Source of the DNA: Alphaproteobacteria bacterium
GTDB lineage: Bacteria > Pseudomonadota > Alphaproteobacteria > Caulobacterales > Maricaulaceae
NCBI GenBank assembly: GCA_021776705.1
Contig: JAJFFL010000021.1
Location: 1 to 32,960 of the forward strand
DNA length: 32,960 nt
Direction: 5' to 3'
A program made the position numbers and the translations under genes. Numbering within the stretch: position 1 is the first letter of the stretch; the number at the start of each line of letters is the position of its first letter. Shown piece after piece: positions 1,858-32,960 of this stretch. The notes beneath the pieces were generated by a model. The model was not told the DNA's origin, made no database searches, and saw nothing but the letters and a program-made list of their open reading frames with translations.

Positions 1858-1868
1858 GGAGAGTTCAA

Positions 1869-3736: not shown

Positions 3737-3756
3737 ACCAGGAGCGCATCCCAGCC

Positions 3757-3793
3757 ATGGCGACCACCGATCTCAGACTTCGAGAACCTGGAC
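3757..3793 (+). pseudogene. 5' fragment of a gene downstream of merA, truncated by the IS left end
   Basis: RBS-like AGGAGC then ATG at 3757 (MATTDLRLREPG...), running directly into the IS terminus at ~3790-3794. Confidence 0.5.
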
Positions 3794-3854
3794 TGCCCCC
3801 CGCAAGGTGGCCGGTGAGCTGAGGTAGAGTTGGGCTTCAGATTTGGAGCTGAAC

Positions 3855-4133: not shown

Positions 4134-4165
4134 GCCCCTCGCGCCGGCGCGCCTGCGTCGACCAC

Positions 4166-5023: not shown

Positions 5024-5054
5024 CTTCGTGCTCTCTGGCCACCTCGAAGGCGCA

Positions 5055-5171
5055 GGTCCCCCCATCGCCCCCTCGACATGTCGTGGCCCCGGATCGATTG
5101 GGGCCGCAGGAATTATTTCCATCCTTTCAAAAAAGGCAATTCTATTCGCCAACACCGCGTGCGAGACGATG
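5055..5171 (-). repeat. 117-bp duplicate (113/117 by eye) of the 5' end/leader of the TIR gene at 30904-31020
   Basis: Ungapped alignment by eye of 5055-5171 with 30904-31020, 4 mismatches. Confidence 0.93.
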
Positions 5172-7651: not shown

Positions 7652-8482
7652 ATGACCATGACCCTCACCAAATCCGATCCCGTCAAAACGCTCGCCCGAC
7701 CGCTGGAAGGCAAGACTGCGTTGGTCACCGGATCGACCAGCGGGATTGGCCTTGGCATCGCCGAAGCGCTGGCCGAAGCGGGCGCGACGATCGTTCTCAA
7801 CGGCCTCGGTGACGCTCAAGCCATCGAGACCACCCGCACCGAACTCGCCGACCGTCACGCGGTCAGCGCTCATTTTCACGGCGCGGACTTGTCCAAACCG
7901 GAAGCCGTCGAAGAGATGATCCGCTTTGCTCAGGACGAAGCCGGCGGCGTCGACATCCTGGTCAACAACGCCGGCATTCAATACGTGGCGCCGATCGAAG
8001 AATTCCCGACCGTCAAATGGGACGCGATTCTCGCAATCAATCTTTCCTCGGCGTTTCACACTATCCGAGCCGTAGTGGCTGAGATGAAGGCGAAGGGATA
8101 CGGCCGCATCGTCAACGTAGCGTCGGCGCACGGTCTTGTCGCATCGCCTTTCAAGTCGGCCTATGTGGCGGCCAAGCACGGCGTCGTCGGTCTGACCAAA
8201 GTCGTTGCGCTTGAATCGGCCGAAAGCGGCGTGACCTGCAACGCCATCTGCCCTGGCTACGTTTGGACGCCGCTGGTCGAAAAACAGATTGAAGACCAGG
8301 CGAAAGCACACGGCATCTCGCGCGAGAAAGTGATTTCCGACGTCCTGTTGAAGTCGCAACCGAACAAGCAGTTCGCCACAGTCGAAGAAATCGGGGCACT
8401 CGCCGTTTTCCTCTCCAGTCCCGCCGGCGCGTCGATCACCGGAACCGCCCTGCCCGTCGACGGCGGCTGGACGGCGCATTGA
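7652..8482 (+). CDS. bdhA: SDR-family 3-hydroxybutyrate dehydrogenase-like protein
   Basis: TGSTSGIGLG, NNAGIQYVAPIEEFP, YVAAKHG, NAICPGYVWTPLVEKQI, VDGGWTAH. Confidence 0.85.
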   Translation: MTMTLTKSDPVKTLARPLEGKTALVTGSTSGIGLGIAEALAEAGATIVLNGLGDAQAIETTRTELADRHAVSAHFHGADLSKPEAVEEMIRFAQDEAGGVDILVNNAGIQYVAPIEEFPTVKWDAILAINLSSAFHTIRAVVAEMKAKGYGRIVNVASAHGLVASPFKSAYVAAKHGVVGLTKVVALESAESGVTCNAICPGYVWTPLVEKQIEDQAKAHGISREKVISDVLLKSQPNKQFATVEEIGALAVFLSSPAGASITGTALPVDGGWTAH

Positions 8483-8508
8483 CCCTCAAAACGCAAAAGA
8501 GATCCGCC

Positions 8509-9582
8509 ATGACCGTGATGGACGTAGCCGCTCCCGCGCCGCGTCGCACTCGCGCGAAGAAAACGCCGACCGACGTCAAGACAATCAATGTCGCCCTACA
8601 AGGCGGCGGAGCACACGGCGCCTTTTCTTGGGGCGTTCTCGACCGGCTGCTTGAGGACGAACGCATCGGTTTCGAAGGTCTCAGCGCGACAAGCGCCGGC
8701 GCGATGAACGCGGCCGTCCTCGCCTTCGGATTGGGCACAGGCGGGCGTGAAGGCGCCAAGAAGGCCCTGGCGTCGTTCTGGCGGCGCATTTCGCATGCAG
8801 GGATGTTCAGCCCGCTCCAGCCGACCGCCTTCGACCGAATGGCGCACAATCACGCGCTGGAAAATTCGCCGGCGTTCCTAGCCTTCGATCTCATCAGCCG
8901 TGTTCTGTCGCCCTACGAATTCAATCCGTTCAATTGGAACCCGCTCCGCCAAGTGCTGGAGGACTGCATAGACTTCGAGACCCTGCGAGAATGCTCAACC
9001 GTCAAGCTGTTCATCTCCGCGACCAATGTCCGCACCGGCAAGATCCGAGTCTTTGAGAACCACGAATTGACCGCCGACGCTGTTCTAGCGTCCGCTTGTT
9101 TGCCGTTCATGTATCAAGCCGTTGAGATCGACGGCGAGGAGTATTGGGACGGCGGCTACATGGGCAATCCGGCGATGTATCCGCTAATCTACAAGTGCGA
9201 CAGCCGCGACATCGTCATCTTGCACATCAATCCGATCGAACGGACCGAGACCCCGAAGTCGGCTCGCGACATCCTCAATCGGATCAACGAAATCAGCTTC
9301 AATTCCTCGCTGATGCGCGAAATGCGCGCGATTGCATTCGTCACCAAGCTCATCGACGAAGGCGGCGTCGACGAGTCCAAAATGAAGCGGATGCTCATCC
9401 ATGCGATCGAGGCGCAAGACTTCATGCGCGAACTCGGCGTGTCCTCGAAGCTCAACTGCGATTGGGAGTTTCTCACCCACCTGCGAGATGTGGGCCGTGA
9501 GCGCGCGACGGAATGGCTGGACACCAACTTCGACGCGCTCAACCAGCGCAGCTCGATCGACGTGTCCGAAACATACCTCTGA
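8509..9582 (+). CDS. Patatin-like phospholipase
   Basis: VALQGGGAHGAFSWGVLDRLL, SATSAGAMNA (GxSxG-like), WDGGYMGNPA (DGG). Confidence 0.9.
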   Translation: MTVMDVAAPAPRRTRAKKTPTDVKTINVALQGGGAHGAFSWGVLDRLLEDERIGFEGLSATSAGAMNAAVLAFGLGTGGREGAKKALASFWRRISHAGMFSPLQPTAFDRMAHNHALENSPAFLAFDLISRVLSPYEFNPFNWNPLRQVLEDCIDFETLRECSTVKLFISATNVRTGKIRVFENHELTADAVLASACLPFMYQAVEIDGEEYWDGGYMGNPAMYPLIYKCDSRDIVILHINPIERTETPKSARDILNRINEISFNSSLMREMRAIAFVTKLIDEGGVDESKMKRMLIHAIEAQDFMRELGVSSKLNCDWEFLTHLRDVGRERATEWLDTNFDALNQRSSIDVSETYL

Positions 9583-9587
9583 GCGCC

Positions 9588-11003
9588 ATGAGCGATGAAC
9601 TAGCTCGCCAACAAGCGACGACCGCATCCGTTGGCGCTTCGGCGCGAGACAAGCTGAACGCGATTTTGTCCATCATCCGCCGAAACCTCGGCGACATGCT
9701 GAGGCCGCCGACTGCGCCGCCGCGCGCCGCGAGCGCGATACACGAAGCGGAAGGCCGGGCCGAAATCTTTGTTGGCTACGTTCAGCTGGCGGGCGTGATC
9801 ACATTCGCTGCGCTCTACGGTCTGTCGCGCGCCGCTTTTTCTGCCGGCGGCGGTTTTGAGCCGGTTCCGCTCATGCTCGTGCTGTACGCTGGATTCGTCG
9901 TCTGGCGGCTTCGAATGGCGTTGCGCGGAAAATTGACGCTCGCAATTTTGACGGTTTCGACCGTCGCCGACGTCGGCGTCCTCATGGGCGCGATTTGGTC
10001 GTTTACCATTCAATATGACGCGCCGGGGGCGCTTTATCTCAAGGCCCCGACGCTGCTCTACGTTTTTACGCTCATTGCTCTCCGCGCCCTCCGCTTCGAT
10101 CCTCGGCAGGTCTTGCTTTCCGGCGTCGTCGCCGCACTTGGATGGATCATCTTGGTGTTCTTGGCGGCCTTCGGAGACGAACCGGCGCCGCTGACGTCGG
10201 ACTACCCCACCTACATGACATCGTTGTCGTTGCTTTGGGGCGCGGAGGCGGAAAAAGTCCTCGCGATCCTCGCGGCCACCGTAATTCTTGCACTCGTCGT
10301 GGCGCGCGCCCGCACCCTCCTGATCCGCACGAGTGTCGAAACAGACGCGGCGACCGATTTGGCTCGCTTTCTCGATCGAAACGCCGCGCGAAGGGTGCGC
10401 CAGGCCGAAACCGCGCTGGAGGCGGGAGACGGCGAACTCAAGCCTGCCGCGATCATGTTCATCGACCTTCGAGGCTTCAGCGCGGCCGCAGCCGCGATGG
10501 ACGCTCGCGACGTGATCAAACTTCTGGAAGAGTACCAAAGCCGTTTCGTGCCGGTCGTCGAAGCCGCCGGCGGTTCTATCGACAAGTTCCTCGGCGACGG
10601 CATCCTTATAAGCTTCGGCACAGCGGCATCGTCAGGTCGCGAAGCTGCGGACGCTTTGGCCGTCATTCCCGCTCTTCTCGGCGCCGCGGACCTGTGGGCC
10701 CGCGATCGAAAAGCGAGAGGCGACCCGCCGCTCGATGTCGCTGTCGCCCTCACAACCGGCGAAGTGGTTCACGGCGTCGTCGGCTACGGCGATCGCCTGG
10801 AATTCACGGTCATCGGAGACGCCGTAAACTTGGCCGCCAAATTGGAAAAACACGCCAAAGTGGAAAACGCCCGGGTGATTGCGACTCTGGACGTCATCCA
10901 ACGCGGTCACGCTCAAGGCCAAGCCGCGACGCCGACACGCATCGTCCGGGCCGCTTGCGTCGAAGGCGTGTCCAAGCCGATCGACCTCGCCGTTTTGGCC
11001 TAG
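9588..11003 (+). CDS. Membrane-anchored class III adenylate/guanylate cyclase
   Basis: N-terminal TM helices; AAIMFIDLRGFSAAA...GGSIDKFLGDGILISFG...GEVVHGVVGYGDRLEFTVIGDAVNLAAKLE. Confidence 0.93.
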   Translation: MSDELARQQATTASVGASARDKLNAILSIIRRNLGDMLRPPTAPPRAASAIHEAEGRAEIFVGYVQLAGVITFAALYGLSRAAFSAGGGFEPVPLMLVLYAGFVVWRLRMALRGKLTLAILTVSTVADVGVLMGAIWSFTIQYDAPGALYLKAPTLLYVFTLIALRALRFDPRQVLLSGVVAALGWIILVFLAAFGDEPAPLTSDYPTYMTSLSLLWGAEAEKVLAILAATVILALVVARARTLLIRTSVETDAATDLARFLDRNAARRVRQAETALEAGDGELKPAAIMFIDLRGFSAAAAAMDARDVIKLLEEYQSRFVPVVEAAGGSIDKFLGDGILISFGTAASSGREAADALAVIPALLGAADLWARDRKARGDPPLDVAVALTTGEVVHGVVGYGDRLEFTVIGDAVNLAAKLEKHAKVENARVIATLDVIQRGHAQGQAATPTRIVRAACVEGVSKPIDLAVLA

Positions 11004-16910: not shown

Positions 16911-19900
16911 TCAGTCCGCGTTGTTGCTAGACGCCGTAGCGCCTCGATTCAGCCAATAGTGGTCCACCACTCGCAACGCGCGCGCAATCGCGCCGGGCGG
17001 CGCGCAGACGTCGTCGCCGATGCGGTAGCCTTCGCCTTGGAGCGCAGGTACGGCTTTGAGATCGCCCTCGTTCAAGAGCCGCCGCGCTCCTCGCAGCTTT
17101 CCCGTCGCTGGGTCGCAGACGAGCGAGACGAGCGTGTGCTGGCGGCGTCGGACCTCGATCGGCGGCAGGCCAGCCACGGCGCGTTGAGCGTCCGTGCGCA
17201 ACCAGCCGATATCGAGTCGAACCAGTTGATAGTTCACAAGTCCGATCGCTGAAGCGCCGTCGGGGCGGATGGAGATCGGCCGGACCGGGTTCCAGACAGC
17301 GCCGTCGACCCGTCTGAAGGCACTGACTGGAGATTCTTGGGCAAATGGGCCGACGAGGCTGTCGCCGCTGGCGACGTCATAGAGCAGGAATCCCGTAGCC
17401 GTCCGGAGAGCTATGCGCGCGCCATCGGCCAGAATCTGCCCATGTTGGGCTTCCCGATGTGATTGGGTGACTGGACCAAGAGGACGGGCGGTGGCGACGT
17501 CCCAAATTTGCAAATATGCCCTATCGTCTTCACGACCGAAACTGTCTCCTCGATCGAGATGACTGCGGACAACAAAACGTCGGTCGTCGGTCAACTCGAT
17601 CCGTTCGCTCTCCCACAGCGGCGGCAATTCGGCAAAGATCTCGCCTGTGAGAGCCTCCCTAAAGACGACCGAGCCTGACTCGTTTGTGACCAACGCCTCC
17701 GCCGCTCCGTGAAGCGTCACTTGCCAAGAGTCGAGTTCGAAATTTCTGACCGATTCGCCTGTGGCTACATCATAAACGTCCACGAAGGTGCGGTCTCCGT
17801 CCCCTTGTTCGACAATCAGCTCCTCTCCAGTGCGTGATAGAGAGAAGGAGTGGAAGCCGCGACGAACCGGAATCATGATTCCCGACCCGACCGACGCTCC
17901 GGTGGCGACGTCCCAGACCCTTAATAGGTATTGCGGATCGGGGTTCGACCGGGACGGGACACTGGATTCGCCGATCGGCCTTGAGAGAGTAACCAACCTC
18001 CAGCCATCTGCGGAAAAGGCGCTGTCAAAGGCGGTGTAGAATTCGAGGCCCGGTTCGCGCTCAAGCTCGCTTGGGATAACCGCCCCGGTCCGCGCATCGC
18101 GAAGTATTAGGTAGGCTGGGGGGTGAACATACGGCGCATCAGGCGCGCTAGTCGGTGGTGGCCGTGTGCTGCGCACGCCGATCAGGCGGCGTCCGTCTGG
18201 ACTGATCCCGGCGATTCGTTCTCTGCGGAGGCCGTCGGGGGTCTCAACCTGAGCCGGAATGGGCTCCGAATCCACATCAGGTTCGTACGTCGAGAGATCC
18301 CGTCGGCGCCACGTCTGCGTCTCCGGAGCCCGATCAGAGTCCAGTTTCAACGCGTCGCCGACCCACAGCACCGTATGATCAGGCGACAAAAAGAAATCGA
18401 CGAGCGAATTCGGCGGGGAAATATCCTCCATCCAAGGCGCGGTAAACCCAGTGACAATCCGAAACGAGTAGCCAGGGTTGGGGATTATTGGACCGGGCTT
18501 TGAGAGGATTCGCGGGATGGATGGCGAAAAGGCAACCCCGAGATCCGGATAGTCGTCGCTCGCGTCCGGCCAGAACAGCACGTCCAACCCGGCTACGCCC
18601 GGGACCCGCTCGAAACGATCACCTGTCAGGCGAGCGGCGTACGGGCCGCCATCGATGTCGAAAGGGTCGCCGATCCACTCTCCCGTCTCGACATCGAACA
18701 GGCGATAGCGGCGATGCCTGAGATAGCTGTCACCGCGCTTTCTTTCGTCAAACCAAGACGTAACCACCGCGAAGCGACGTCCATCCGCGCTAAACGCGGC
18801 TGCCTCCAAAAATTCTCTGTCCTCGGCTTCGAACCTCAGTGCGCCTGCCTCCCCGGTTGTGGCGTCCCAAAAGTTGACCGTCTTGTATCCAAAAAGGACA
18901 ACCGAACGCCCATCCGGCGAGAATCCGGGGCTCTTAGGAGACGTTGCGTTCCCGAAGATCGGCGTGACAGGCTGGTAAGTGTCGGTGCGCCAAACCTGCG
19001 CCTCGCCATCTTTGTTTACTGTCAGGAGCCGCTCGCCGTCAGGCGAGAACCTGGCGAAGGAAAACCTGCTGCGGTGTTCCGGCGGATAGTTCAATGGACC
19101 TGCGAGCGGCGTCCCGGTAAATGCGTCAACGACGAAAACGCCATACGCCTCGCCTTCATCGATCACGCGCTCGGAGGCTGAGTTCGTCGTCGTCAGTCTA
19201 CCATCAAGCACGAACAACCTGCCATTTGGCGATAAATGCCCGCGCATCTCACTGAATGCAATCGGCGGGTCGGCGACGCTCTCCCCAGTCTCGATCGAGA
19301 ACAATCTCGGCGCATAGCAGTCGAGGAAGAGGAATGCGCCGTCAGGTGAAAACTGTGCCGCGTTCAGTTTGTCTCCACACGAGATCGGCGCTCCGACTAA
19401 GGCGCCCGTTTCGGCGTCCCAAACCCTCACCGACCTTTTGCCGCCCGAAAAGCGTCCAACCTTTGTGGCTATGCGACGGCCGTCCACAGATTGAGCCACG
19501 AAAGAATGCTCCTCGCCCTCGCCAATGCCGATGCCGTCGGGAAGCTGGGTCGCGGCATCGATCAAGCTTTGCAATGCCGCCGGCGCGGGCCTGGCGAGGA
19601 GATCGCGGCGAGCGCCAAGGGCGGCGAGGCGTACGGCGCGCTCAGTGGTTTCGACAGTGTGACCTTCGTCGATCGCGCGCTCGAACGCCTGGCGAGCGCT
19701 CTGCGCCAAACCCGCCGACGTTGTCGGAGACCGTTCGCGTTCGATCCAGCCGAGGCCCGCGCCAACGACGCCGAACAGAACAACTCCTACCGCCAGCGCT
19801 TGCATTCGCCGGGCGCGGGCCCGGCGACGTTCGCGTTTCCAGAGGTCGTCAAAGGCGGCGCCGACGAGTCCTGCGGCGAGGCGAACCTTGAGGCGAGAAA

Positions 19901-20375
19901 GCCCGTCCTTGCGCCAGTCCGGAGCCAGTGGTTCGTCCTGCTCGCCCGTAAGTTCCCCGTCGGGGCCGACCTTTTCCTTTAGCGCCGGGCAGAAACACTC
20001 CGTCTTTGGATCATTTGAGTTGGGCTTGCCCCCGACGATCACAGCGAATACGCGACCCACCCCGCGATGCTTGAAGCGGCGCACCTCGAGGTCAACCCAC
20101 TTCGATCGAGCCGACTGGGGCGAACACAGAACGATCAGGCTTTCGGAATCGTCAATCGAACCTTGCAAGGCTGCGCCGAGGCTCTCTACTGCGCCCATCT
20201 CCTCGTCGTCTCGGAAGAAACGGCCGAGCCGCCGCGACTTCGGATCGAGGCCAGGCGCGGTCACGCCGCCAGGCGTTCGCCACGCTTCGAGCGCCTTGTG
20301 CAGCTTCACCGCCCAGCGCTTGTCGCGCTGGCTGTAGCTTATGAAGGCGCGATAGCGTCGCTTATTTTCACTCAT
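16911..20375 (-). CDS. TIR-domain protein with single TM helix and C-terminal WD40/beta-propeller repeats
   Basis: N-term RYRAFISYSQRDKRWAVKLHKALE...ESLIVLCSPQSARSKWVDLEVRRF; TM MQALAVGVVLFGVVGAGLGW; many (F)SPDGRR...VWDxxTG repeats. Confidence 0.9.
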   Translation of the reverse strand: MSENKRRYRAFISYSQRDKRWAVKLHKALEAWRTPGGVTAPGLDPKSRRLGRFFRDDEEMGAVESLGAALQGSIDDSESLIVLCSPQSARSKWVDLEVRRFKHRGVGRVFAVIVGGKPNSNDPKTECFCPALKEKVGPDGELTGEQDEPLAPDWRKDGLSRLKVRLAAGLVGAAFDDLWKRERRRARARRMQALAVGVVLFGVVGAGLGWIERERSPTTSAGLAQSARQAFERAIDEGHTVETTERAVRLAALGARRDLLARPAPAALQSLIDAATQLPDGIGIGEGEEHSFVAQSVDGRRIATKVGRFSGGKRSVRVWDAETGALVGAPISCGDKLNAAQFSPDGAFLFLDCYAPRLFSIETGESVADPPIAFSEMRGHLSPNGRLFVLDGRLTTTNSASERVIDEGEAYGVFVVDAFTGTPLAGPLNYPPEHRSRFSFARFSPDGERLLTVNKDGEAQVWRTDTYQPVTPIFGNATSPKSPGFSPDGRSVVLFGYKTVNFWDATTGEAGALRFEAEDREFLEAAAFSADGRRFAVVTSWFDERKRGDSYLRHRRYRLFDVETGEWIGDPFDIDGGPYAARLTGDRFERVPGVAGLDVLFWPDASDDYPDLGVAFSPSIPRILSKPGPIIPNPGYSFRIVTGFTAPWMEDISPPNSLVDFFLSPDHTVLWVGDALKLDSDRAPETQTWRRRDLSTYEPDVDSEPIPAQVETPDGLRRERIAGISPDGRRLIGVRSTRPPPTSAPDAPYVHPPAYLILRDARTGAVIPSELEREPGLEFYTAFDSAFSADGWRLVTLSRPIGESSVPSRSNPDPQYLLRVWDVATGASVGSGIMIPVRRGFHSFSLSRTGEELIVEQGDGDRTFVDVYDVATGESVRNFELDSWQVTLHGAAEALVTNESGSVVFREALTGEIFAELPPLWESERIELTDDRRFVVRSHLDRGDSFGREDDRAYLQIWDVATARPLGPVTQSHREAQHGQILADGARIALRTATGFLLYDVASGDSLVGPFAQESPVSAFRRVDGAVWNPVRPISIRPDGASAIGLVNYQLVRLDIGWLRTDAQRAVAGLPPIEVRRRQHTLVSLVCDPATGKLRGARRLLNEGDLKAVPALQGEGYRIGDDVCAPPGAIARALRVVDHYWLNRGATASSNNAD

Positions 20376-20418: not shown

Positions 20419-20877
20419 TCATCTCGAATTTGGCGAATTGGGCTCGCTGTCCTGATAAGACTTCAGGCGCGCCTCAAAGAGTTTGGCGTTCGAAGCTGGG
20501 TCCAAGTCGTCGCCGAACGACCCACCAAGATAGATGTACGCAACCGGCTGATCCGCCTCGCATGCAAGGCTGTAGAACGAGCGCGCCTGTTCGCGATCGG
20601 CTTCGAAGCCGGCGCCGTTCGCGTAGGCGCGCGCAAGGATTGTTCGACTGTTTGCATCGCCGGCGTTCGCCGCGGCCGCAAGAATCTTCAGCCCGCAATC
20701 GACCAATACGCGATCCGGCGTTCCGGCGGCGCCTGCCGATTCCGAGTCCGTATCCGCGATAGCATGCAGGTCTTTGATGAGAGCCGCGACGATCTGTGGG
20801 GACGCAGTTTCGCCTTGCGATTCAGCGGGCGCCGCCATGATCAGACCCAAGGCGGCCGCAAACGCTCCCGTTTTCAT
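20419..20877 (-). CDS. Secreted Sel1/TPR-like repeat protein
   Basis: MKTGAFAAALGLIMAAPAESQ signal; LAAAANAGDANSRTILARAYANGAGFEADREQARSFYSLACEADQPVAYIYLGG. Confidence 0.65.
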   Translation of the reverse strand: MKTGAFAAALGLIMAAPAESQGETASPQIVAALIKDLHAIADTDSESAGAAGTPDRVLVDCGLKILAAAANAGDANSRTILARAYANGAGFEADREQARSFYSLACEADQPVAYIYLGGSFGDDLDPASNAKLFEARLKSYQDSEPNSPNSR

Positions 20878-21224
20878 GCCGCTGCCCGTCCCCCAAACGC
20901 GTCGACCCAACCTTATAGGCATGCAAGTCGGTTGCAAAGGAGTCAGAAAAGCGGCGCGCAGGATCTGCCGCCGCCCCAGGTTTCTTGCACGATGCTCTTC
21001 GTCTAACCGAACTGCCCCATTAAAGTGACCAGTGTGCGGCACTCGGGCGAAGCTGAAAGCCTATAATGAGATCACGCCTACGCCCTACACCGATGTCGCG
21101 CAGCTCGCCAACCAGTCCAAAATTTGCAAGACAACTCGCCCCGCGAGGAGCAGATTTCATGTACCGATAGGGCGTCGACGCAGCTTGCGCGGACGACGCT
21201 GCGGCGTTTTCGGCTGGGGGGCCG

Positions 21225-22220
21225 ATGTCGTCTCTCGACACCACCGTCTCGCGACCCGCGGCTTGGCCGTGGGCGATCGCTTTCATACTGCTCACCGTCC
21301 GGTTTCGGTACATCTTAACTGACGACGTCGATCTCTCGTACAATATCAGTTGGCTTATCCCGTTTCTCGCCGCCTATCTCGGCGTGCGCTACGGTCGTCG
21401 CGCGCTCGCTCCGATCCTGATTGCGGCGCCAATTCTCTTGCTGTCTGTCGAATTCGACGAGTTCCTGGGCGAACGCCTGACCGTCGCCGCGGGCTTGAAC
21501 GTTGCGATGTTCGCGCTCGCGGTCGCAACAGCGCTCGCCTTCGCCGCGCCGGAGCCGACGTCGCCCGGCGCCACGCTCTCGACAAAGCACTCGCGCGCAG
21601 CGATCGCGGTGTTCGTGCTGATCCTCTACTTGCTGTCCTTCTCGGTGACCGTCAGTCTCGAAACGTACGATGGGAACGCGTGGGCGGGTGTTGCGCCGTT
21701 TCGCGATTGGGCGTTTCCTGCGCTCGCGTTCTGGATGGCCGCGTCCGGGCGATTGTCGTTGCGCGGGCTCATCGTCGGTCTTGTCGTCTTTTCCGCCATC
21801 GTGTCGCTGACGCGGTCGCTGCTATTCATCGCGGACATCGGCCAAAACAACGGCTGGATCGCGCAGCCATGGATCGCCGCCGCGAACTTCTATTGGGACG
21901 GCCTGCGCTACGAAGCCGAGCGCATGATCGCCAACGAGCCGGCGTTCATGTACGCGGATCTTGATTGGAGCCCGAGCCGCATTTTTGCCGTGCCGTTCGC
22001 GCTCGCCGCCGGCTTCGCCGGACTCGCGCTTGAACCGGCATGGCGAGCCCGGCGGCTGCCCGCCCCTACACCCCGCACGCGCCAGTTGCTGCACGCCGCC
22101 GCGATCACAGCGGTTTTTGGCGCGCTGGCGTTCAGTCTCGCATCCGACGGAATGAATCTTACTGGTGAGGCGGTGTGGAACGCGATGTCAACGGTGGAAG
22201 CGGTTGGGCCAAATCCTTAG
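21225..22220 (+). CDS. Hypothetical multipass membrane protein
   Basis: Many hydrophobic segments; 9 bp upstream of the next ORF on the same strand. Confidence 0.75.
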   Translation: MSSLDTTVSRPAAWPWAIAFILLTVRFRYILTDDVDLSYNISWLIPFLAAYLGVRYGRRALAPILIAAPILLLSVEFDEFLGERLTVAAGLNVAMFALAVATALAFAAPEPTSPGATLSTKHSRAAIAVFVLILYLLSFSVTVSLETYDGNAWAGVAPFRDWAFPALAFWMAASGRLSLRGLIVGLVVFSAIVSLTRSLLFIADIGQNNGWIAQPWIAAANFYWDGLRYEAERMIANEPAFMYADLDWSPSRIFAVPFALAAGFAGLALEPAWRARRLPAPTPRTRQLLHAAAITAVFGALAFSLASDGMNLTGEAVWNAMSTVEAVGPNP

Positions 22221-22229
22221 TTCATCCGA

Positions 22230-24815
22230 ATGTCGGAGACGCGCATGAGAGCCGCGGCGGCCGTTGCTTTGTCGTGCCTTGTGCTCGCCGCATGCGCCAC
22301 GAATCCGGGCCTGCCGTATGCGACGGATACGATCGAGGTCGCTAATCGATACCCCCAATTCATTTACCCGATGGTCAATCCGATCATGCTGGCGATCCTC
22401 GCCGCTGCGGCGTTCGGATTCGGAGCCATTGGCGGACGACGCGCCGCGTTTTCGACGCCGCTCTTTTTCGCTCTCCTGACGTTCATCGCCGTCGTAGCCA
22501 AACAGATCTATAGTGACCCCGATTACATCGATCTTGAGTGGTTCGGGACAATCTTGGCTTCGGCCACCGCCGCCGCCGCAGGGCTCGCGGGCGCGCTGAT
22601 CGGCCGATGCGCCGCGGCGCGATGGACGACGGCCGACATCACGGATGCGGACTTTCAAACCGACGAAGACATAGGCGGCGACCTAAGCCGTCTCGCCGCC
22701 ACTGCGCGGCGGCTGGACGTGTCCGCCACGTTGCGGTCGTTCGTCTCTCTCTACTCGGTGCTTTCGAGCTTGACGTTGCTGATCCTGATGGCGGCGAGCT
22801 TACTTGCGCTACGCAACCAACTTGGAGGCGATTCCGGCGTCGGTTTCACCTGGGGTCTGGTGTTGGTCGCCGCCGCGGCGCTGCTTGCGCCCCTCGGCCT
22901 GGCGATTTTTGATGAGATGGCGCGTCAGCCCTTGCGGATCGCCTCGGGCGTGATCGCCGTCGTCGCCGGCGTCCTGACGATCGTGTTCGGATCGCTTTTG
23001 GCGCTGCTGTCCGGCATCGTCATTTACGTCGGGGCCGTTACGCTTCTGCGCGGCGAATACCACGGCGACTTCGCCCTCGACGATCCGCAGATTCGACGAG
23101 AGGTGTTCATCTACGTCGCCCTCTTGGCGCTGCTGACGTGGACCACGTATCGCTCGCTGCACATCGAGCGCATGCTTGCGAGCAAAGCGCCGCGGCCGGT
23201 GCTGCTCGGCTTTCTCAAGAGCGCCCGATTGAGTCGGCGGTTCGCGTACTTATTCGGCCTGCCGTCGTCGATGTGGCGGGCCGCCTCGTTGAGCCGCTTT
23301 TCATCGTGGCTTTTGCTCGCGTCGCGGCCGATGGTTTACGTTTCATTCGGAGTCGCCAGCTTCGGCTTGGATATCCAGCGTTTCACCACCTACGACTCCT
23401 TCGGTTGGGAAGAGCAAAACACGAGCTTCGGTTGGTCGCCCTATGCGCTCGCCGCGTTCGCCGTCGGCGCGGCGCTGCTCGTGCTCGGCCACGCCGCGTT
23501 TGCGTTCGGCAAACGGCTCGCTGCGCGTCGAATCTGGGAGCCGGAGGTCACTTCAACGAATGCGCCGGCGCCGATTCTGTTTCTGCGGTCGTTCGAGGAC
23601 GATCAACTCGGCATATCGCGTTCCTGGCTCGATCTTCCGGGCAGATGGCTGGACCTGTGGTCGTTCCGGCGCAACGTCGACGAGATGATGATCGACGAGT
23701 TCGCCCAGCTCGGCCCGGTGATCGCGCTTGGCAAACCCGGCGAGATCAGCGCCAAGTTCGGCGCTCAGAGGCGCTACGCGAGCCACGACGATTGGCAAGA
23801 ATTGATCGTCGACGCCGCCGCGCGCGCGAAGGCGATCGTCGTCGCGGCCGGTGAAACGCCGGGGCTGGTTTGGGAGTATGACCTTTTGAGGTCGCGCGGT
23901 TATCTTGAGAAAACGATCTTTTTGTTCCCGCCGTTCGCACTCACGTCAGAACGCGCGAGCAAGTCGCTTGCGCGCTTCGCTGAAGCGTATCCGGAACTCG
24001 ACCCGCGTTCGCGCCTCGACGGCGACTCGCTGATCGCGCTCACCGTGGAAAACGGCGCGGCGCGGCCGTGGACCGCAAAGCGGCCGTCCGCCTCGGCCTA
24101 CTTGGTCGCGCTGCGCCGCTTCTTTCTCCTGCGCGAACGCCCGGGCGCTCTTCGGACTGCATCGGATTCACCAAAGCCGCCGTTCAAACACCGTTTGCGG
24201 CTTATCGGCTTGGCGGCCGTCGCAATGGTCGCCGTCTCCGTGATCGCAGTCGGGTTGTTTGCGCCTAGACGAACGGTGACGCCGGCTTTCCTTCCACCCC
24301 TTGATCAATCGATTATCGCTGCATTGGCTGGAGCAACAATGTGCGGCGGCGAAGTCGACGACATGCTTGAGCAATGCCGACGTGATGCGCTGATTGCCGC
24401 GGGCGCGACGCCGCTTTCAACAGCGGATGCAGACGCGATGCTTGAAGCCTTGCGCACCGAGTGGGGATCCGAACCGACTGGCATCTTCAATATTGCGCGC
24501 AGCGATTTCGCTCTTGAAGCTGTCGCAGCGTGCGATGACGTGACCAGCATTGAGGCGTTCGACGTCCTTAGGGCCGGGTTGTCGGATCATCCAGCTTCAC
24601 TTGTCGATGTCGCCGTTCTCACTGACTTGCCTGAATCGTCCGCCTTTCGAGCCGGCGTGATCGCGGCGTTTCTCGCTGAGTCCTCCGGACCGCCCGATCG
24701 GTTTTCGGCGGCCCCCGCAGAGTGGGTCGCCGCGGCGTGTGCTGGTGACGGCCAATCGTGCTCAGGCACAAAGTGCCTGGTGCGAATCTTGGTCCGCCCG
24801 TTGATCGAGCGATGA
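22230..24815 (+). CDS. Large polytopic membrane protein with a cytosolic TIR/SLOG-like 'FLRSFEDD' domain
   Basis: Lipobox-like LVLAAC near N-term, multiple TMs, then APILFLRSFEDDQLGISR...GPVIALGKPGEISAKFGAQRRYASHDDWQELIVDAAARAKAIVVAAGETPGLVWEYDLL...KTIFLFPP. Confidence 0.8.
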   Translation: MSETRMRAAAAVALSCLVLAACATNPGLPYATDTIEVANRYPQFIYPMVNPIMLAILAAAAFGFGAIGGRRAAFSTPLFFALLTFIAVVAKQIYSDPDYIDLEWFGTILASATAAAAGLAGALIGRCAAARWTTADITDADFQTDEDIGGDLSRLAATARRLDVSATLRSFVSLYSVLSSLTLLILMAASLLALRNQLGGDSGVGFTWGLVLVAAAALLAPLGLAIFDEMARQPLRIASGVIAVVAGVLTIVFGSLLALLSGIVIYVGAVTLLRGEYHGDFALDDPQIRREVFIYVALLALLTWTTYRSLHIERMLASKAPRPVLLGFLKSARLSRRFAYLFGLPSSMWRAASLSRFSSWLLLASRPMVYVSFGVASFGLDIQRFTTYDSFGWEEQNTSFGWSPYALAAFAVGAALLVLGHAAFAFGKRLAARRIWEPEVTSTNAPAPILFLRSFEDDQLGISRSWLDLPGRWLDLWSFRRNVDEMMIDEFAQLGPVIALGKPGEISAKFGAQRRYASHDDWQELIVDAAARAKAIVVAAGETPGLVWEYDLLRSRGYLEKTIFLFPPFALTSERASKSLARFAEAYPELDPRSRLDGDSLIALTVENGAARPWTAKRPSASAYLVALRRFFLLRERPGALRTASDSPKPPFKHRLRLIGLAAVAMVAVSVIAVGLFAPRRTVTPAFLPPLDQSIIAALAGATMCGGEVDDMLEQCRRDALIAAGATPLSTADADAMLEALRTEWGSEPTGIFNIARSDFALEAVAACDDVTSIEAFDVLRAGLSDHPASLVDVAVLTDLPESSAFRAGVIAAFLAESSGPPDRFSAAPAEWVAAACAGDGQSCSGTKCLVRILVRPLIER

Positions 24816-24930
24816 TCTCAAGCTTGGACAAGCCGACGTTTTCGGATGTCGCGACGCGGCGGCCGCGTCTTGGACCTCATCCAGTGGCGGCTCTAGACTG
24901 TGGGTTTGCTTGTCGCCGAGGGGCCCATTC

Positions 24931-25284
24931 ATGAAAAGCCGGGAGGATATCGCGCGCGTCGTTCACGAAGCGGTGCGCGCTTGGGCCAAGTCGAGGGGAG
25001 ACGCGTCGATCCCCGCGTGGAGCCGGGCGCCGAGGTGGATGCGTGAGGCGACGCTTGAGGCGATCCGATTTCGGCTCGCGAATCCAAAAGCGCCGGCTTC
25101 CGCCCAGCACGAACAATGGATGGCGGAGAAGCGCGCCAACGGTTGGAGGCGCGGCAAGGTCAAGGACGTGCGCAAGAAGACACATCCTTTGCTCGTGCCG
25201 TATGCGCGCCTGCCCATATTTGAACGCCGCAAGGACGCGCTTGTCGGCGCCGTCATCGACTCCCTGACGGGCCCGATCGCGTAA
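24931..25284 (+). CDS. Stand-alone RyR (ryanodine receptor repeat) domain protein
   Basis: VVHEAVRAWAKSRGD...WSRAPRWMREATLEAIRFRLANPKAPASAQHEQWMAEKRANGWRRGKVKDVRKKTHPLLVPYARLP..ERRKDALV fits the RyR pattern (HexW..K..GW.yG..kd...KtHP.lvPY..L....r.KD). Confidence 0.82.
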   Translation: MKSREDIARVVHEAVRAWAKSRGDASIPAWSRAPRWMREATLEAIRFRLANPKAPASAQHEQWMAEKRANGWRRGKVKDVRKKTHPLLVPYARLPIFERRKDALVGAVIDSLTGPIA

Positions 25285-25357
25285 GGCGGCTGCCGCTTGC
25301 CAAGGCGGCGCTCGGCCCGCAGAGTTTTTCGGCGCTGCGGGGCGCTTGGGGGAAGCC

Positions 25358-27079
25358 ATGTCTCAAGGCGAGTTCTTGTCGGCGATCGACGCGCGCCTGC
25401 AGGCGCCGGGGCCGAAGCGCATCCTGTCGCTCGACGGCGGCGGCGTGAAGGGCATCCTCACCGCCGGCATGCTGGAAGTGATCGAGGACCGGCTGCGCGC
25501 GCGCATTCCCGATCCGGAAGCGAAAGAAAAGTTTCGCTTGTGCGACTACTTCGACCTGATCGGCGGCACGTCGACCGGCGCCATCATCGCCGCCCTGCTC
25601 GCGCTCGGGCTCAAGGCGGAGCAAGTCACCGAAGCCTACCGCGCGTTTTGTCCCGGGATTTTCAAACCGGGGTTTCGCGTGCCTATCTTTCAGTCAATCT
25701 ACGACCCGAAAAATTTCGAGCGCGTGATCCGCGCGACGCTCGCCGAAATCGCGCGCCGCTACGGCCGCGACCTGGACGCAATGACCCTCGACACCGAGAT
25801 GCTGCGCACCGGGTTCGCGGTGTTTTGCAAGCGCGCCGACACCGGCTCGCCCTGGATGCTCACCAACAATCCGCGGTCGATGTACTGGGACCATGCCACG
25901 GGCCCTTGGGCGGAATATTGGCGCGGCGTTTTCGAGCGTGAAGACGACAAACCGTTCCATCCCAACGCCAAGTATCCGCTCGGCGACGTGGTGCGGGCGA
26001 GCGCCGCAGCGCCGTTGTTTCTGGAGGCCGCGAAGATCAAAATCGGCGACGAGAAGACCGGCGTCTTCGTCGATGGGGCGGTAAGCACCAGCAACAACCC
26101 GGCGCTGCAGTTGTTTGTGACGGCGGCGTTGCGCGGTTACGATCAGCGCGCGGTCGACGACGGCAGACGCACGCCGTTCGGCTTTCGCTGGGCCACCGGA
26201 CCCGAGAACCTGTTTCTGTTGTCGCTCGGCACCGGGTCGCGGCGCGAGAAAATGAGATTCCGCAAGTACGTCGTCACCGAGCAAGTGGAAGCTGTCCGCG
26301 CGGTCACAGCGCTGACCACGATCATAGCCGACACGGTCAACAACGCGGTGGCGGTTCTCCAGGCCCTTTCCGCGCCCGCAAAGCCGGTGACGCTCAACAG
26401 CGAACTCTCGAACATCGACGGCTTGCTCGCTTCCGACACGCCGCTCTTGACGTTCCGACGGGTCGATCCGTCGATCGAACTCGACAAGCTCGACGCCGAG
26501 GCGCCCGGCGGCCCGCCGGGGCGCCGGAAGTCTTCGTGGCGCGACCACGCCAAGCGCGTAGGCCAACTCAGCGATCTTGACCGGGCGGACCCGCGCAACC
26601 TTGACTGGCTTCATCATATCGGACGGGTTCACGCCGAACGAGCCGTTGACGAAAAAGACTTTCCAGCCGCCTTCGACATCGAGGTTATGGGCGGCCCCGA
26701 TGGCCGCGCCGCCCGCCAGGCGGACGAAGCGGACCCCGCGCTGGTCGCGCGCATCGCCGAGGTGGTTCACGAGGCCCTGAGAGCCTGGAAGCTGTCGGCG
26801 GGCGAGGAGTCGCACCCGCATTGGAACGAAGCTCCTGAGTGGATGCGATCGTCGACGCTCGAGTCGGTCCGGTTCCGCATCGCCAATCCATCCGCTCCAG
26901 CTTCGGTGGAGCACGAGAGGTGGATGGCGGAAAGAGCGCGCGATGGTTGGCGACGAGGCCCGGAAAAGGACGAGACCGCCAAGACTCATCCGATGATGAT
27001 ACCCTATGCCGAGCTGCCGGAAGACGAGCGCAAGAAGGACGCTTTGATTATATCGGTGGTAGACGCGCTGATCCGGTAA
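25358..27079 (+). CDS. Patatin-like phospholipase (CapV-like) with C-terminal RyR domain
   Basis: RILSLDGGGVKGILTAGML; GGTSTGAII; VDGAVSTSNNPA; C-term VVHEALRAWKLSAGEESHPHWNEAPEWMRSS...EHERWMAERARDGWRRGPEKDETAKTHPMMIPYAELPEDERKKDALI. Confidence 0.92.
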   Translation: MSQGEFLSAIDARLQAPGPKRILSLDGGGVKGILTAGMLEVIEDRLRARIPDPEAKEKFRLCDYFDLIGGTSTGAIIAALLALGLKAEQVTEAYRAFCPGIFKPGFRVPIFQSIYDPKNFERVIRATLAEIARRYGRDLDAMTLDTEMLRTGFAVFCKRADTGSPWMLTNNPRSMYWDHATGPWAEYWRGVFEREDDKPFHPNAKYPLGDVVRASAAAPLFLEAAKIKIGDEKTGVFVDGAVSTSNNPALQLFVTAALRGYDQRAVDDGRRTPFGFRWATGPENLFLLSLGTGSRREKMRFRKYVVTEQVEAVRAVTALTTIIADTVNNAVAVLQALSAPAKPVTLNSELSNIDGLLASDTPLLTFRRVDPSIELDKLDAEAPGGPPGRRKSSWRDHAKRVGQLSDLDRADPRNLDWLHHIGRVHAERAVDEKDFPAAFDIEVMGGPDGRAARQADEADPALVARIAEVVHEALRAWKLSAGEESHPHWNEAPEWMRSSTLESVRFRIANPSAPASVEHERWMAERARDGWRRGPEKDETAKTHPMMIPYAELPEDERKKDALIISVVDALIR

Positions 27080-27300: not shown

Positions 27301-28347
27301 TCATTCTGCGGACTTGAGGATCGCCGTAACCGGATGATGGTCGGTATATTGGAAGCCGAAATTCCGGGTCGAGACATCGAGAATGTTCACATTCGGCGAG
27401 AAAAGGAGACCGTCAATAATGAAAGTCGCATTCTCCCCGGCGACGTAGGGCTTGTGCGCGGTCCGAACCGTTGGAGTCGAATCGTCAACTGCCCAGGTCC
27501 ATCCATCTGGAACAAGTTCCTGCGGGAACTCGCGAACCCAAAACAGATCCTCTTCGGACGTCGTGTTGTCGTTTCGATAGTCCGACAACAAGAGGTTCCA
27601 GTCGCCTCCAACAACGACGTGAGCCCCGCCGTCGTATGCCTCCTTCGCCAGCGCCAAGACGCGCCTTACCTGTGCTTCTCGAACCGCCGCCGTGTCCGTG
27701 TCAAAAGACGACAAGTGAATATTCATCAGCACCCAGCGATCCTCGGACGATTGATCAACGAACTCGATGACCTCGACGCCGTAGCGCTTGCGGAAGATGC
27801 CCAACGCAAAAGTCGGCTCCACCGGCAGCGCGCGGACCCGCGCTTCGTCGATCTTGAGAGCTGAATAGAATGCGTTTCCCACGCGGGTGCGCACCGGCGG
27901 CGGAACGAACCGAGTGTTCACTTCGGCTGTGAAGACGTGATCGTATCCGGCCAATGCCCGCGAAACGAGTCGTCGGACATTTGTCTGGTAGGTGCTCCAC
28001 GACGGCTCCGCGAGTTCCTGAATGAAATAAACGTCGGACCGTAGGCTCGGAATTGTCTTCGCGATCCAGGCCGCGTTTCTCTGCACCAGCGCTTTTTGCG
28101 CGGGGCGCATTTGAGTTCCGCCGTCCATCACAAAGTCGGCTTCGGCTCCCATCCCTGCGTAGCCGATATTCCAGGTCGTCACCTGCAACCACGGGCCGAC
28201 GAAGTCGACCGCATTCTGCGACCGGACAATCTGAATTGACGCGCTGTCGCGGCGGACCTGCTGCCGATTCACCAACGCGATGACCGCCGCCCAGGCCGCT
28301 AGGAGCGCGAACACCAAGACGAGCGCGATTGCTAGCTTCTTGAGCAA
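27301..28347 (-). CDS. Endonuclease/exonuclease/phosphatase (EEP) family protein with N-terminal TM
   Basis: TM MLKKLAIALVLVFALLAAWAAVIAL; LQVTTWNIGYAG; NIHLSSFDTD; VVGGDWNLL; TDHHPVTAIL. Confidence 0.87.
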   Translation of the reverse strand: MLKKLAIALVLVFALLAAWAAVIALVNRQQVRRDSASIQIVRSQNAVDFVGPWLQVTTWNIGYAGMGAEADFVMDGGTQMRPAQKALVQRNAAWIAKTIPSLRSDVYFIQELAEPSWSTYQTNVRRLVSRALAGYDHVFTAEVNTRFVPPPVRTRVGNAFYSALKIDEARVRALPVEPTFALGIFRKRYGVEVIEFVDQSSEDRWVLMNIHLSSFDTDTAAVREAQVRRVLALAKEAYDGGAHVVVGGDWNLLLSDYRNDNTTSEEDLFWVREFPQELVPDGWTWAVDDSTPTVRTAHKPYVAGENATFIIDGLLFSPNVNILDVSTRNFGFQYTDHHPVTAILKSAE

Positions 28348-29006: not shown

Positions 29007-31004
29007 TCATGAATTGCCCGCCATGACTCGCGACAAAGCGACGAGGGACAAGAAGACGATCACCAGAACGCCGACCTTGTAGAATACGAAGCTCGCCAGA
29101 AACATGATCACGACCGCGACCACCGTTAGCATGCCGGGCGAGTCCGTCGGCCATACTCGTATCCGCTTCAAGCGTTGACGAATTTCCTCATCGGAGAGAT
29201 TGGTAATCCGACGCAGGCGTGCAACGCCGATGTTTTCAAGTTCGTCGAACACGACCCGACGGCCGGCGCTCGCCGCCTGGCGAAGGAACAAGTAAAATCC
29301 ACCCAAGAACCCGATAACAATGAAAGCGAAGATGACCCACGTGAAGACGTTTTGAGGCGCCGTGCTGGGCGTATTCTCCGAGAACAGGTACCCGGTGATC
29401 TGGTCTAGGGCTTCTCGCGACGGATCCTGGACGAACGCCTGGATCATCCAAACGTCAGGAAGATAGAAACTCAATATGTTTGAGTCCGACGTGCGCATGT
29501 AGATGTTCTGCGCGCTCATGAAATAGCAGACGATCATCACGATGAAGAACACCGCCAATCCATAACCGAAGAACGCCCCGAGAGCCTCAAAACCACGTCG
29601 GCGGTCCTTCGAATTCAGATCCGGGATCACGGTCAGTCGATACGCATGGGTCACGCCCGGGAAAAACGCCAACCCGACACCGATCAAAATGAACATGAAC
29701 GAAAACAGCGAACCCACGCCGACGCCGGCATAAAGAGCGTAGACCGTGATGTCGAAGTAGCGGTTCGCGTCAGGATCGGTCGACACGGGGTCGCGGCGAT
29801 CGAGGTAGGCGGCGATCGACCAGTCCCGCTCCAAGCTGGGATGATCCAACGGATAGCCGTCGCCTCCGGAAACCTCGGAGATGACGTTTATCTTTCTATG
29901 TTCCGCCGGAGAATCCGCGATCGACGCGACCACTTGGTGGTAGTCGACGGCGGCGTACGAAAGTGCAAGGGAACTGACGAACAACATCGAAAAAACAACG
30001 AACCGCCCGATGTGCTTTTGCATGCGCAAGAAGTCAGGATGCTCCGCCGTGATTGGGTCGAGGTCGGTGGTTAGAATCATGCGGCGCTGAACCATTTCGC
30101 GGCCGGCGCGTCGCAGCTCAGACAGAGCCAGAAAAATAAGAGACCATGCCAGCGGCAACAAAACCACCGCCGTCAGGCTCCAATTCAACGCCGGAATGAA
30201 CCCGACTTGCTTTGCGCCAGTGTCCAACGCGGCGTCGCCGCCGAGGGAAGGCTCCCAGGTGACGAAACCAACGTTGATGAGGCCGGCGGCGATGATCACG
30301 CAAAATCCGACGGAGAAGGTGATCAAAAACACGGCGATGGCGGTCATCGTGCGCGCCGGCGATTGACGCGTAAATTTCGTCGCGCCGGATTCGGTCGTAG
30401 TTGACTCCGGCGTCGCTGTCGTCGCGATGGCCGAATGTTCAGGCGCGGAATCAGGTTGCGGCGAAATTAGATTGGTGGGATTCGCCGTTCTCATAGACTT
30501 TGGTTGAGCGCCATCGACACGAATCTCGAGTTTCGCCAGAGCGCGCAAAATCGCGTTCGTGTTCGAAACGCGTTCGACGTTGAATTCTCGAAAGCCGTAC
30601 GGCACGCGACTGAGACTGAACCCGTCGATGCACGTAGCGACCAGTTTTTCGTCAAGCACGCCTGTCAACGACTCTTCGCGCACCCAATGGGAGCGAATCG
30701 AGGCGTCGGACCAAATGACAATGACGGCGGCAGCAGAAGTGACCACGTCGCCGATGCGAATGCGAAACGCTTCCGTGGAGAGCAGATCTTCGTCCCACCA
30801 GACGTCGTAGCCCAAGCTCGTCAGGGCGTCCTTGAGCGAGCGCGCATGCTCGACATCGACGTGCGCGTAGGAAATGAAGATCGTCTTGGCCGACGCTGGC
30901 GCAGGTCCCCCCATCGCCCCCTCGACATGTCGTGGCCCCGGATCGATTGGGGCCGCAGGAATTATTTCCATCCCTCCAAGAAAGGCAATTCTATTCGCCA
31001 ACAC
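29007..31004 (-). CDS. TIR-domain protein with ~7 C-terminal TM helices (alternative ATG start at 30914)
   Basis: KTIFISYAHVDVEHARSLKDALTSLGYDVWWDEDLLSTEAFRIRIGDVVTSAAAVIVIWSDASIRSHWVREES, followed by multiple hydrophobic helices. Confidence 0.9.
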   Translation of the reverse strand: MLANRIAFLGGMEIIPAAPIDPGPRHVEGAMGGPAPASAKTIFISYAHVDVEHARSLKDALTSLGYDVWWDEDLLSTEAFRIRIGDVVTSAAAVIVIWSDASIRSHWVREESLTGVLDEKLVATCIDGFSLSRVPYGFREFNVERVSNTNAILRALAKLEIRVDGAQPKSMRTANPTNLISPQPDSAPEHSAIATTATPESTTTESGATKFTRQSPARTMTAIAVFLITFSVGFCVIIAAGLINVGFVTWEPSLGGDAALDTGAKQVGFIPALNWSLTAVVLLPLAWSLIFLALSELRRAGREMVQRRMILTTDLDPITAEHPDFLRMQKHIGRFVVFSMLFVSSLALSYAAVDYHQVVASIADSPAEHRKINVISEVSGGDGYPLDHPSLERDWSIAAYLDRRDPVSTDPDANRYFDITVYALYAGVGVGSLFSFMFILIGVGLAFFPGVTHAYRLTVIPDLNSKDRRRGFEALGAFFGYGLAVFFIVMIVCYFMSAQNIYMRTSDSNILSFYLPDVWMIQAFVQDPSREALDQITGYLFSENTPSTAPQNVFTWVIFAFIVIGFLGGFYLFLRQAASAGRRVVFDELENIGVARLRRITNLSDEEIRQRLKRIRVWPTDSPGMLTVVAVVIMFLASFVFYKVGVLVIVFLSLVALSRVMAGNS

Positions 31005-31409: not shown

Positions 31410-32960
31410 CTACCCAGCGGACCCCTCCTCCCTGCGTTCGTCCTCCCCAAACGCGCCTGCAAAGGCAGCCGCTCCGTCGGGAAGGGGCGCGAACCAGCGA
31501 TGCAGGGCTGGCAACACGAGCAGCGTCAAGACCGTTGAGGTGGCGAGACCGCCGGTAACGACGGTGGCAAGCGGGCGCTGCACCTCGGCTCCGACGCCGG
31601 TGGCGAAGAGGAGCGGCGCCAATCCGAGAGCGGTCGTCAAGGCGGTCATCAAAACCGGCCGAGCGCGCAACGCAGCGGCGTCGAGCGCGAGTTCATCGAG
31701 CGATCGGCCCGCGCGTGCGAAGTCATCCAAGAAGCTGACGAGCACCATCCCGTTGCCAAGCGCGATGCCGAACAATGCGATGAATCCCACCGTGGCCGGC
31801 ACCGACACCGGTAGTCCGGCCAGCCAAAGCGCAATCGCGCCGCCTGTAAGAGCGAGCGGGATGTTCAAGAGGATCAGAATTGAAGACTTAAGACGCCCGA
31901 ATGTCAGCAATAGGATCAACAAGACGATGCCAAGTGTGACGGGAATGACCACGGCGAAGCGCTCGTTCGCCTTCTGCTGCAACTCGAACTGTCCGCCCCA
32001 CGCGACGCGGTAACCGGGAGGAAGCGAGAGTTCGCGATCAACACGCGCCCGCGCTTCTTCGACGAATGAGCCGATGTCGCGACCCCGCACGTTGGCCTGC
32101 ACGGTTATGAAGCGCTGCCCGTCCTCACGGGTGATCTGACGAGGCCCCACAAGCAGTTCAATGTCCGCAACATCATCGAGCAACACGCGCGCGCCGCCAG
32201 GGGCGGAAAGCACGATGCGGCGTACGGCTTCCGGCGAAGACCGCGCATTCTCTCGAAACCGTACAACGATCGGGAATTGACGGACACCATCAAACACGAC
32301 GCCCGCTTCCGCTCCTCCTACTGCGGCGCGGAGTGCGTCAAGCGCGTCTTCCACATCAAGGCCGTAGCGGCCGATCGCAGCGCGATCCACGGTTACGACA
32401 AGTTGCGGCGCGCCTGTGATTTGGTCGGCCTGCACGTCCGTAGCGCCTTCCACCTCTTGGAGCATCGACTGCAAGAGCCGGGATCGGTCCAAGAGCACGT
32501 CAGTGTCCGGGCCGAATATCTTGACCGCCAGTTCGGCGCGCGTTCCAGTCAGCAGCTCGTCAACGGACATGGCGATCGGCTGACCGACGTTGGCGAGCAC
32601 GCCGGGGGCGTCCTCCAGAAACTCCGACAGCGCATCGCGAAGCTCTGAGGGAGACATGTCACCGCGCCATTCGATGCGCGGCTTTAGCGCAATAAACGAT
32701 TCCGCGTTGTTCGTCGGGTCAGCGTGCGCGCCGACCTCTCCGCGCCCGATGCGGCTCACGATTTCATCAATTTCAGGGAACGAGTCGAGCAGTCGCCGCT
32801 CCAGCCGCGTCATCGTTTCACGCGCTTCCGTCAGGGAGATCGACGGCGCCATGGTGACGCGCAACATGATGTCGCCCTCTTCGAGGGCGGGCGTGAATTC
32901 CGAGCCCAGCCTTGACGCCGCAACTCCGCCTAGGACCAAGAGCCCGACAGCAAGGCCGAC
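31410..32960 (-). CDS. czcA: Heavy-metal RND efflux permease (CzcA/CusA-like), C-terminal half (N-term beyond window)
   Basis: GSEFTPALEEGDIMLRVTMAPSISLTEA, RPLATVVTGGLATSTVLTLLVLPALHRWF; frame open to window end. Confidence 0.92.
   Translation of the reverse strand, partial: VGLAVGLLVLGGVAASRLGSEFTPALEEGDIMLRVTMAPSISLTEARETMTRLERRLLDSFPEIDEIVSRIGRGEVGAHADPTNNAESFIALKPRIEWRGDMSPSELRDALSEFLEDAPGVLANVGQPIAMSVDELLTGTRAELAVKIFGPDTDVLLDRSRLLQSMLQEVEGATDVQADQITGAPQLVVTVDRAAIGRYGLDVEDALDALRAAVGGAEAGVVFDGVRQFPIVVRFRENARSSPEAVRRIVLSAPGGARVLLDDVADIELLVGPRQITREDGQRFITVQANVRGRDIGSFVEEARARVDRELSLPPGYRVAWGGQFELQQKANERFAVVIPVTLGIVLLILLLTFGRLKSSILILLNIPLALTGGAIALWLAGLPVSVPATVGFIALFGIALGNGMVLVSFLDDFARAGRSLDELALDAAALRARPVLMTALTTALGLAPLLFATGVGAEVQRPLATVVTGGLATSTVLTLLVLPALHRWFAPLPDGAAAFAGAFGEDERREEGSAG

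Follow-up and report, generated by a model that had tools for sequence, protein, structure and literature searches.

The window analyzed here is a 32,960-nucleotide stretch of an alphaproteobacterial genome (contig JAJFFL010000021.1), taken from a 2.87-Mb draft assembly, and the subject is a cassette of four collinear plus-strand genes at 21225-27079, flanked by two minus-strand genes for TIR-domain proteins. The four genes encode two membrane proteins, a lone ryanodine receptor (RyR) domain, and a patatin-like phospholipase fused to a second RyR domain. An earlier, sequence-only reading had described this layout, and open reading frame (ORF) calls confirmed its coordinates as well as its gaps of 9, 115 and 73 bp between successive genes when ATG starts are used; the two flanking TIR proteins also proved to be real, each possessing the TIR glutamate. 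The genes of the locus, with the numbering used throughout, are as follows.

16911-20375, minus strand: TIR-WD40 protein, 1154 amino acids, with Pfam matches to TIR_2, ThsB_TIR and a WD40-type propeller
20419-21042, minus strand: Sel1-like small protein, 207 amino acids, with a weak Sel1 match below the Pfam cut-off
21225-22220, plus strand: gene 1, a multipass membrane protein by hydropathy, 331 amino acids, ATG start, of no known family
22230-24815, plus strand: gene 2, a polytopic membrane protein with a soluble 'FLRSF' domain, 861 amino acids, ATG start
24931-25284, plus strand: gene 3, a lone RyR-domain protein (PF02026), 117 amino acids from the ATG; a TTG start at 24910 is possible
25358-27079, plus strand: gene 4, a patatin-RyR fusion (PF01734 and PF02026), 573 amino acids from the ATG; a TTG start at 25346 is possible
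29007-31004, minus strand: TIR protein with multiple transmembrane (TM) segments (TIR-TM protein), 665 amino acids, PF13676

The RyR domains of gene 3 and gene 4 (residues ~456-573 of the gene 4 product) each matched PF02026 with E=1e-10, scoring 42.2 and 41.7 bits against a curated cut-off of 27.4, while the patatin part of gene 4 matched PF01734 with E=6e-25, at 89.1 bits against 27.7; the domain names first given to these two genes were thus borne out. Phage proteins with the same domain, the RyDEP family, have recently been reported to bind 2'- and 3'-cyclic ADP-ribose (2'cADPR and 3'cADPR), one of them also cleaving the bond, with H75, W78, H100 and D117 as the ligand residues, and homologs from a Pectobacterium phage and a Ruegeria phage exhibited nanomolar binding constants (PMC13232231, a preprint of May 2026). 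All four ligand residues are retained in the window, as H60, W63, H85 and D102 in the lone RyR and as H519, W522, H544 and D561 in the fused RyR, at a spacing identical to that of RyDEP, and both domains also have the His and Asp that are catalytic in RyDEP. The same four residues were present in 38 of 40 lone RyRs and in all eight phage RyRs sampled. The RyR family profile matched the phage RyDEP structure (PDB 35TM) over most of its length (E 8.5e-14), and the fused RyR part, modeled with a predicted local distance difference test score (pLDDT) of ~95, resembled RyR3 repeat structures; the RyR part alone was used, the model, built from a shallow alignment, being poor in its patatin part. A 96-domain RyR tree, which rests on few alignment columns, united the two copies of the window with all eight phage RyRs and 34 lone RyRs in one clade (support 100/99); the RyRs of large two-TM-TrkA_N proteins fell outside it. 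Recent DNA duplication as the source of the two window copies was rejected, as a search for direct repeats of at least 25 bp found none.

More than 270 annotated phage genomes carry RyR proteins that are about 29-46%, mostly 30-45%, identical to those of the window, including a Pectobacterium phage relative of 44% identity and a Ruegeria phage relative of 36%, which may not be the proteins that were assayed. The phage records include those of Salmonella, Pseudomonas, Aeromonas and Arthrobacter phages, and many of their RyR proteins are labeled hypothetical. The viral-contig collection yielded no relative of RyR or patatin-RyR, though annotated phage genomes hold RyR genes in such numbers, and the plasmid matches inspected lay mostly in phage-like gene neighborhoods rather than in RyR-patatin operons.

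The sequence-only reading had staked itself on RyR and patatin genes being linked to TIR-like genes in other genomes, and such linkage was indeed found. PF02026 was detected in 29 genomes of the 199 relatives versus 7 of 387 class-sample genomes, the own genome being counted in both. With the window left out, a Pfam match to TIR_2 lay no more than 10 kb away in at least 12 of 35 RyR loci, against the 1.3 expected given the TIR count and size of the genomes (P~4e-10); collapsed to genera, the count was at least 9 of 23, with 1.1 expected (P~1e-8). The linkage was strongest where TIRs are rare, i.e., in at least 10 of 15 loci from genomes with 1-3 TIRs (0.17 expected), and the RyR and TIR genes are adjacent in L033, L036, L040, L054, L058 and L066, among other loci. 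Lone RyR genes proved to be linked to patatin genes as well, three of 12 scanned lone RyR loci having a patatin gene within 5 kb against 0.11 expected (P~1.5e-4). Because the patatins near RyR genes fall in at least three lineages of the patatin tree, it follows from tree and gene order that RyR and patatin have been joined repeatedly, once by fusion.

Individual loci illustrate these arrangements. On a Hyphomonadaceae contig (L095, JANSWU010000006.1, 1-19600), six TIR genes are followed by a lone RyR gene and then a patatin gene; a TPR-S/trypsin protein and two further TIR genes occur after the patatin, within 20 kb. In genome G267 (L064, 3327-8742), a TrkA_N-RyR gene precedes a patatin gene on the same strand, and this locus also has a same-strand gene whose product weakly matches DUF4231 and is SLOG-like at its start. 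In an uncultured member of the Clostridia (L110, 3900-14000), two RyR genes precede a same-strand TIR-LRR gene, an order that suggests a RyR-TIR operon outside Proteobacteria; the co-directional series there also includes a membrane protein and other genes. On a Streptomyces contig (L107), a TIR ORF runs into the RyR gene. In nine loci (L075-L078, L084, L086, L088, L090 and L091), a lone RyR that reads HWHD is paired with a large RyR protein whose counterpart of H100 or D117 has been lost (HWRD or HWHN), which hints at a split of the domains into readers and erasers. Two DUF4062-STAND ATPase genes adjoin a pair of lone RyR and large RyR in genome G043 (L048, 383-8647).

Of the two flanking TIR proteins, the TIR-WD40 protein matched TIR_2 (2e-8), ThsB_TIR (1e-5) and WD40-type propeller models of Pfam; its catalytic-type Glu97, located in the motif SKWVDLE, is invariant in the corresponding alignment (A4), and a single TM segment is predicted at ~193-211. 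The TIR-TM protein matched PF13676 (TIR_2) at 7e-14, and its Glu111 is invariant in alignment A3; the names assigned to it by PADLOC are weak, partial TIR matches only. Among the 199 relatives, the best match of the TIR-WD40 protein (54% over 343 amino acids) is in genome G071, ~2.4 kb from a lone RyR gene, in a locus that also holds a patatin gene and a second TIR-WD40-like gene. This juxtaposition favors the TIR-WD40 protein as the signal maker, and it is most likely this protein, rather than gene 2, that is the TIR partner of the RyR genes, because relatives of genes 1 and 2 hardly occur near RyR. The TIR-TM protein is a possible second signal maker or membrane TIR.

The products of genes 1 and 2, both with several TM segments by hydropathy, were assigned no family by Pfam, PADLOC or NCBIfam. 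The gene 2 product has a lipobox-like start (LVLAAC) and, between TM segments, the soluble FLRSF domain at ~440-650, in which a Trp-Glu pair (Trp548-Glu549) following a predicted strand is invariant in a 12-member alignment (A5). In hhalign comparison with TIR, the Glu residues aligned, and the profile probability climbed from 18% to 44% (E 2.4e-4) when the FLRSF alignment grew from 7 to 12 rows; as a negative control, the FLRSF profile gave nothing against RyR. When the domain alone was modeled by AlphaFold2 from a single sequence, it reached a pLDDT of 53, with no PDB match under E 0.001, and no match to DUF4062 was detected. On this profile evidence the FLRSF domain is probably TIR-like; of the 'TIR/SLOG-like' label once given to gene 2, the TIR part is moderately supported and the SLOG part unsupported. 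A parallel can be seen in DUF4062/Swarozyc, a divergent TIR-like NADase family acting in defense (PMC13174449), to the extent that divergent TIR-like defense families do exist.

The patatin part of gene 4 has kept its catalytic elements, namely the GGG oxyanion loop, the GTSTG motif with the serine that the sequence-only reading had pointed out (Ser72), and the DGA motif (Asp239). Patatins are nucleotide-gated effectors in the cyclic oligonucleotide-based antiphage signaling system (CBASS), and the PDB relatives of the gene 4 patatin by sequence were patatin-17 and cyclic-nucleotide-activated CBASS phospholipases. In the patatin tree, the gene 4 patatin groups as sister with an unlinked paralog from its own genome (94/94), and other unlinked chromosomal patatins branch close by. 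In the own genome, contig C45 (L139, 3848-5659) holds a paralogous patatin of 49% identity in an open frame of 603 amino acids, and the C-terminal extension of that frame is other than RyR.

Compared with known systems, the locus is probably a variant of TIR nucleotide signaling that is separate from Thoeris and CBASS. It resembles Thoeris types I and II in having a TIR protein with a catalytic-type Glu near a putative ligand-gated effector, with cADPR isomers as the likely signal class, but differs in that RyR takes the place of SLOG/Macro as the proposed receptor and that a patatin, not an NADase or membrane disruptor, is the effector. The likeness to patatin CBASS (CapV, NF041079) lies in a patatin-like phospholipase for which activation by a nucleotide signal is proposed; however, the window patatin carries a RyR domain and scored 89.9 bits against the CBASS equivalog NF041079, below its cut-off of 200. 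Pfam or PADLOC scans of proteins from the window revealed no CD-NTase, SIR2-SLOG (ThsA) or Macro protein, in agreement with the first inspection, and a textbook CBASS or Thoeris I/II was rejected as the defining parts were not found. The two-TM-TrkA_N-RyR proteins of related alphaproteobacteria also place RyR toward the C-terminus of a putative effector, frequently neighbor TIR genes and in many cases come with a lone RyR partner, although theirs is a channel-like membrane protein, not a phospholipase, and their RyR belongs elsewhere in the tree. With RyDEP, the window RyRs share the domain over nearly its full length, the four ligand residues and the clade, but they are chromosomal, occurring as a lone gene and a phospholipase fusion near TIR genes, whereas RyDEP is an immune-evasion protein of phages.

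Taken together, the locus is probably a TIR-to-RyR signaling system that serves antiviral defense of the abortive-infection type. In the mechanism that we consider best, a TIR enzyme would use nicotinamide adenine dinucleotide (NAD+) to produce a messenger of the ADP-ribose type, which is probably one of the cyclic ADPR isomers. This enzyme is likeliest the divergent TIR-WD40 protein, with the TIR-TM protein and the TIR-like FLRSF membrane protein as alternatives. The messenger would be bound by the C-terminal RyR of the patatin fusion, in the pocket formed by H519, W522, H544 and D561, and binding would switch on the phospholipase, leading to degradation of membrane lipids. The lone RyR, being of the clade of phage RyR sponges and hydrolases, may lower or clear the messenger or set the threshold, or it may act as a partner of the fused RyR. 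We put the probability of this mechanism, in which RyR reads an ADPR-type signal from TIR and patatin carries out the response, at roughly 0.5. The chain from TIR through RyR to patatin had been proposed from the letters of the locus, and it gains from the linkage, the PF02026 matches and the cADPR-binding phage kin, whereas the idea of the four genes as its unit is weaker.

Several observations, in fact, weigh against this interpretation. As a unit, the four genes are not conserved across genomes: gene 1 had no BLAST relative in other RyR loci, and relatives of gene 2, found in 7 other genomes of the 199, were near RyR only in G174, as a broken copy, such that a general FLRSF-RyR linkage was rejected and gene 2 became the less likely TIR partner. 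FLRSF was also rare in wider samples (1 other genome of 241 in the class, 2 of 349 in the phylum), and no relative was found in viral contigs, although the 7-row FLRSF alignment varied too much to serve for that purpose. It is therefore nearly an even bet that the module consists of the patatin-RyR fusion, the lone RyR and the TIR-WD40 protein, with genes 1 and 2 as passengers, an arrangement compatible with the preferred mechanism; the 115-bp gap that separates gene 2 from the lone RyR gene would fit it, but the four genes are co-directional with short gaps, their terminator-like sites do not exceed those of shuffled sequence, and FLRSF itself looks TIR-like. The patatin-RyR fusion was seen in the own genome only within the sample, and the closest relatives of its patatin are unlinked, housekeeping-like patatins of 45-49% identity, syntenic in one family; judged by these relatives, the patatin family of gene 4 is not dedicated to defense. 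The linkage test assumes uniform gene placement, and TIR density is high in some relatives. Lastly, human RyR3 R12 domains have been solved with ATP, ADP and AMP-PCP (PDB titles), and a RyR ligand therefore need not be TIR-made; and the 'DW/RW' motif has its W followed by M in the window RyRs but by Q in the three aligned phage proteins, so the ligand preference of the two may differ.

Much of this would suit a lipase under metabolic or stress regulation, in which RyR senses ordinary ATP, ADP or ADPR and the proximity of TIR genes reflects shared variable islands. The nucleotides in the R12 structures, the affinity of the patatin to unlinked chromosomal ones, including that of its own genome, and the plentiful TIR genes of several relatives all speak for it; nonetheless, we regard it as unlikely, as the RyR-TIR linkage peaks precisely where TIRs are rare and often amounts to direct adjacency, and the window RyRs cluster with phage RyRs of the anti-Thoeris type. 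A different use of that kinship, improbable in our estimate, would make the RyR modules phage-derived erasers or sponges, in which case the lone RyR, possibly together with the fusion, would dampen the TIR signal rather than read it. The common clade with phage sponge and hydrolase RyRs and the retained catalytic His and Asp are what this would predict, but in putative effectors (the patatin here, two-TM-TrkA_N proteins elsewhere) RyR sits at the C-terminal end, in the layout of an input domain, and cellular lone RyRs are widespread in Hyphomonadaceae, with the phage RyRs nested inside them.

If true, the TIR-RyR-patatin mechanism would add a new receptor-effector pair, a RyR-phospholipase, to TIR nucleotide immunity, and would explain why many phages carry RyR proteins, i.e., by mimicry of the host receptor. 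It would also provide a case in bacteria of RyR domains acting as readers of cyclic ADPR isomers, bearing directly on the long-debated action of cADPR at animal ryanodine receptors. A wider generalization, which we advance tentatively and at somewhat less than even odds, is that RyR is the bacterial receptor for TIR-made cADPR messengers, gating phospholipase or two-TM-TrkA_N effectors, with the small RyR as off-switch and the phage RyR as countermeasure, and is possibly a forerunner of the proposed animal cADPR-ryanodine receptor link. In the searchable literature, no paper joined 'RyR domain' and patatin, though a preprint on TIR systems might pre-empt the finding.

As to the rest of the window, a 182-bp intergenic stretch parts gene 1 from the divergent Sel1-like gene, which lies upstream of the TIR-WD40 gene, and a protein of the endonuclease/exonuclease/phosphatase family with a hydrophobic N-terminus is encoded between the patatin-RyR and TIR-TM genes (27301-28347, minus strand). 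Another patatin-like protein (PF01734, 2.5e-25), distant from the gene 4 patatin, is encoded in a pair at 8479-9582 and 9585-11003 (plus strand), in which a class III nucleotide cyclase gene (PF00211) overlaps or directly follows the patatin gene. At the two ends of the window (1-5100 and 31410-32960) are genes of the metal-transport/resistance type, namely for a piece of a P-type ATPase, a mercuric-reductase-like oxidoreductase and a resistance-nodulation-division (RND) efflux pump, as well as an IS3-type transposase; the occurrence of such genes at both flanks suggests a variable island.
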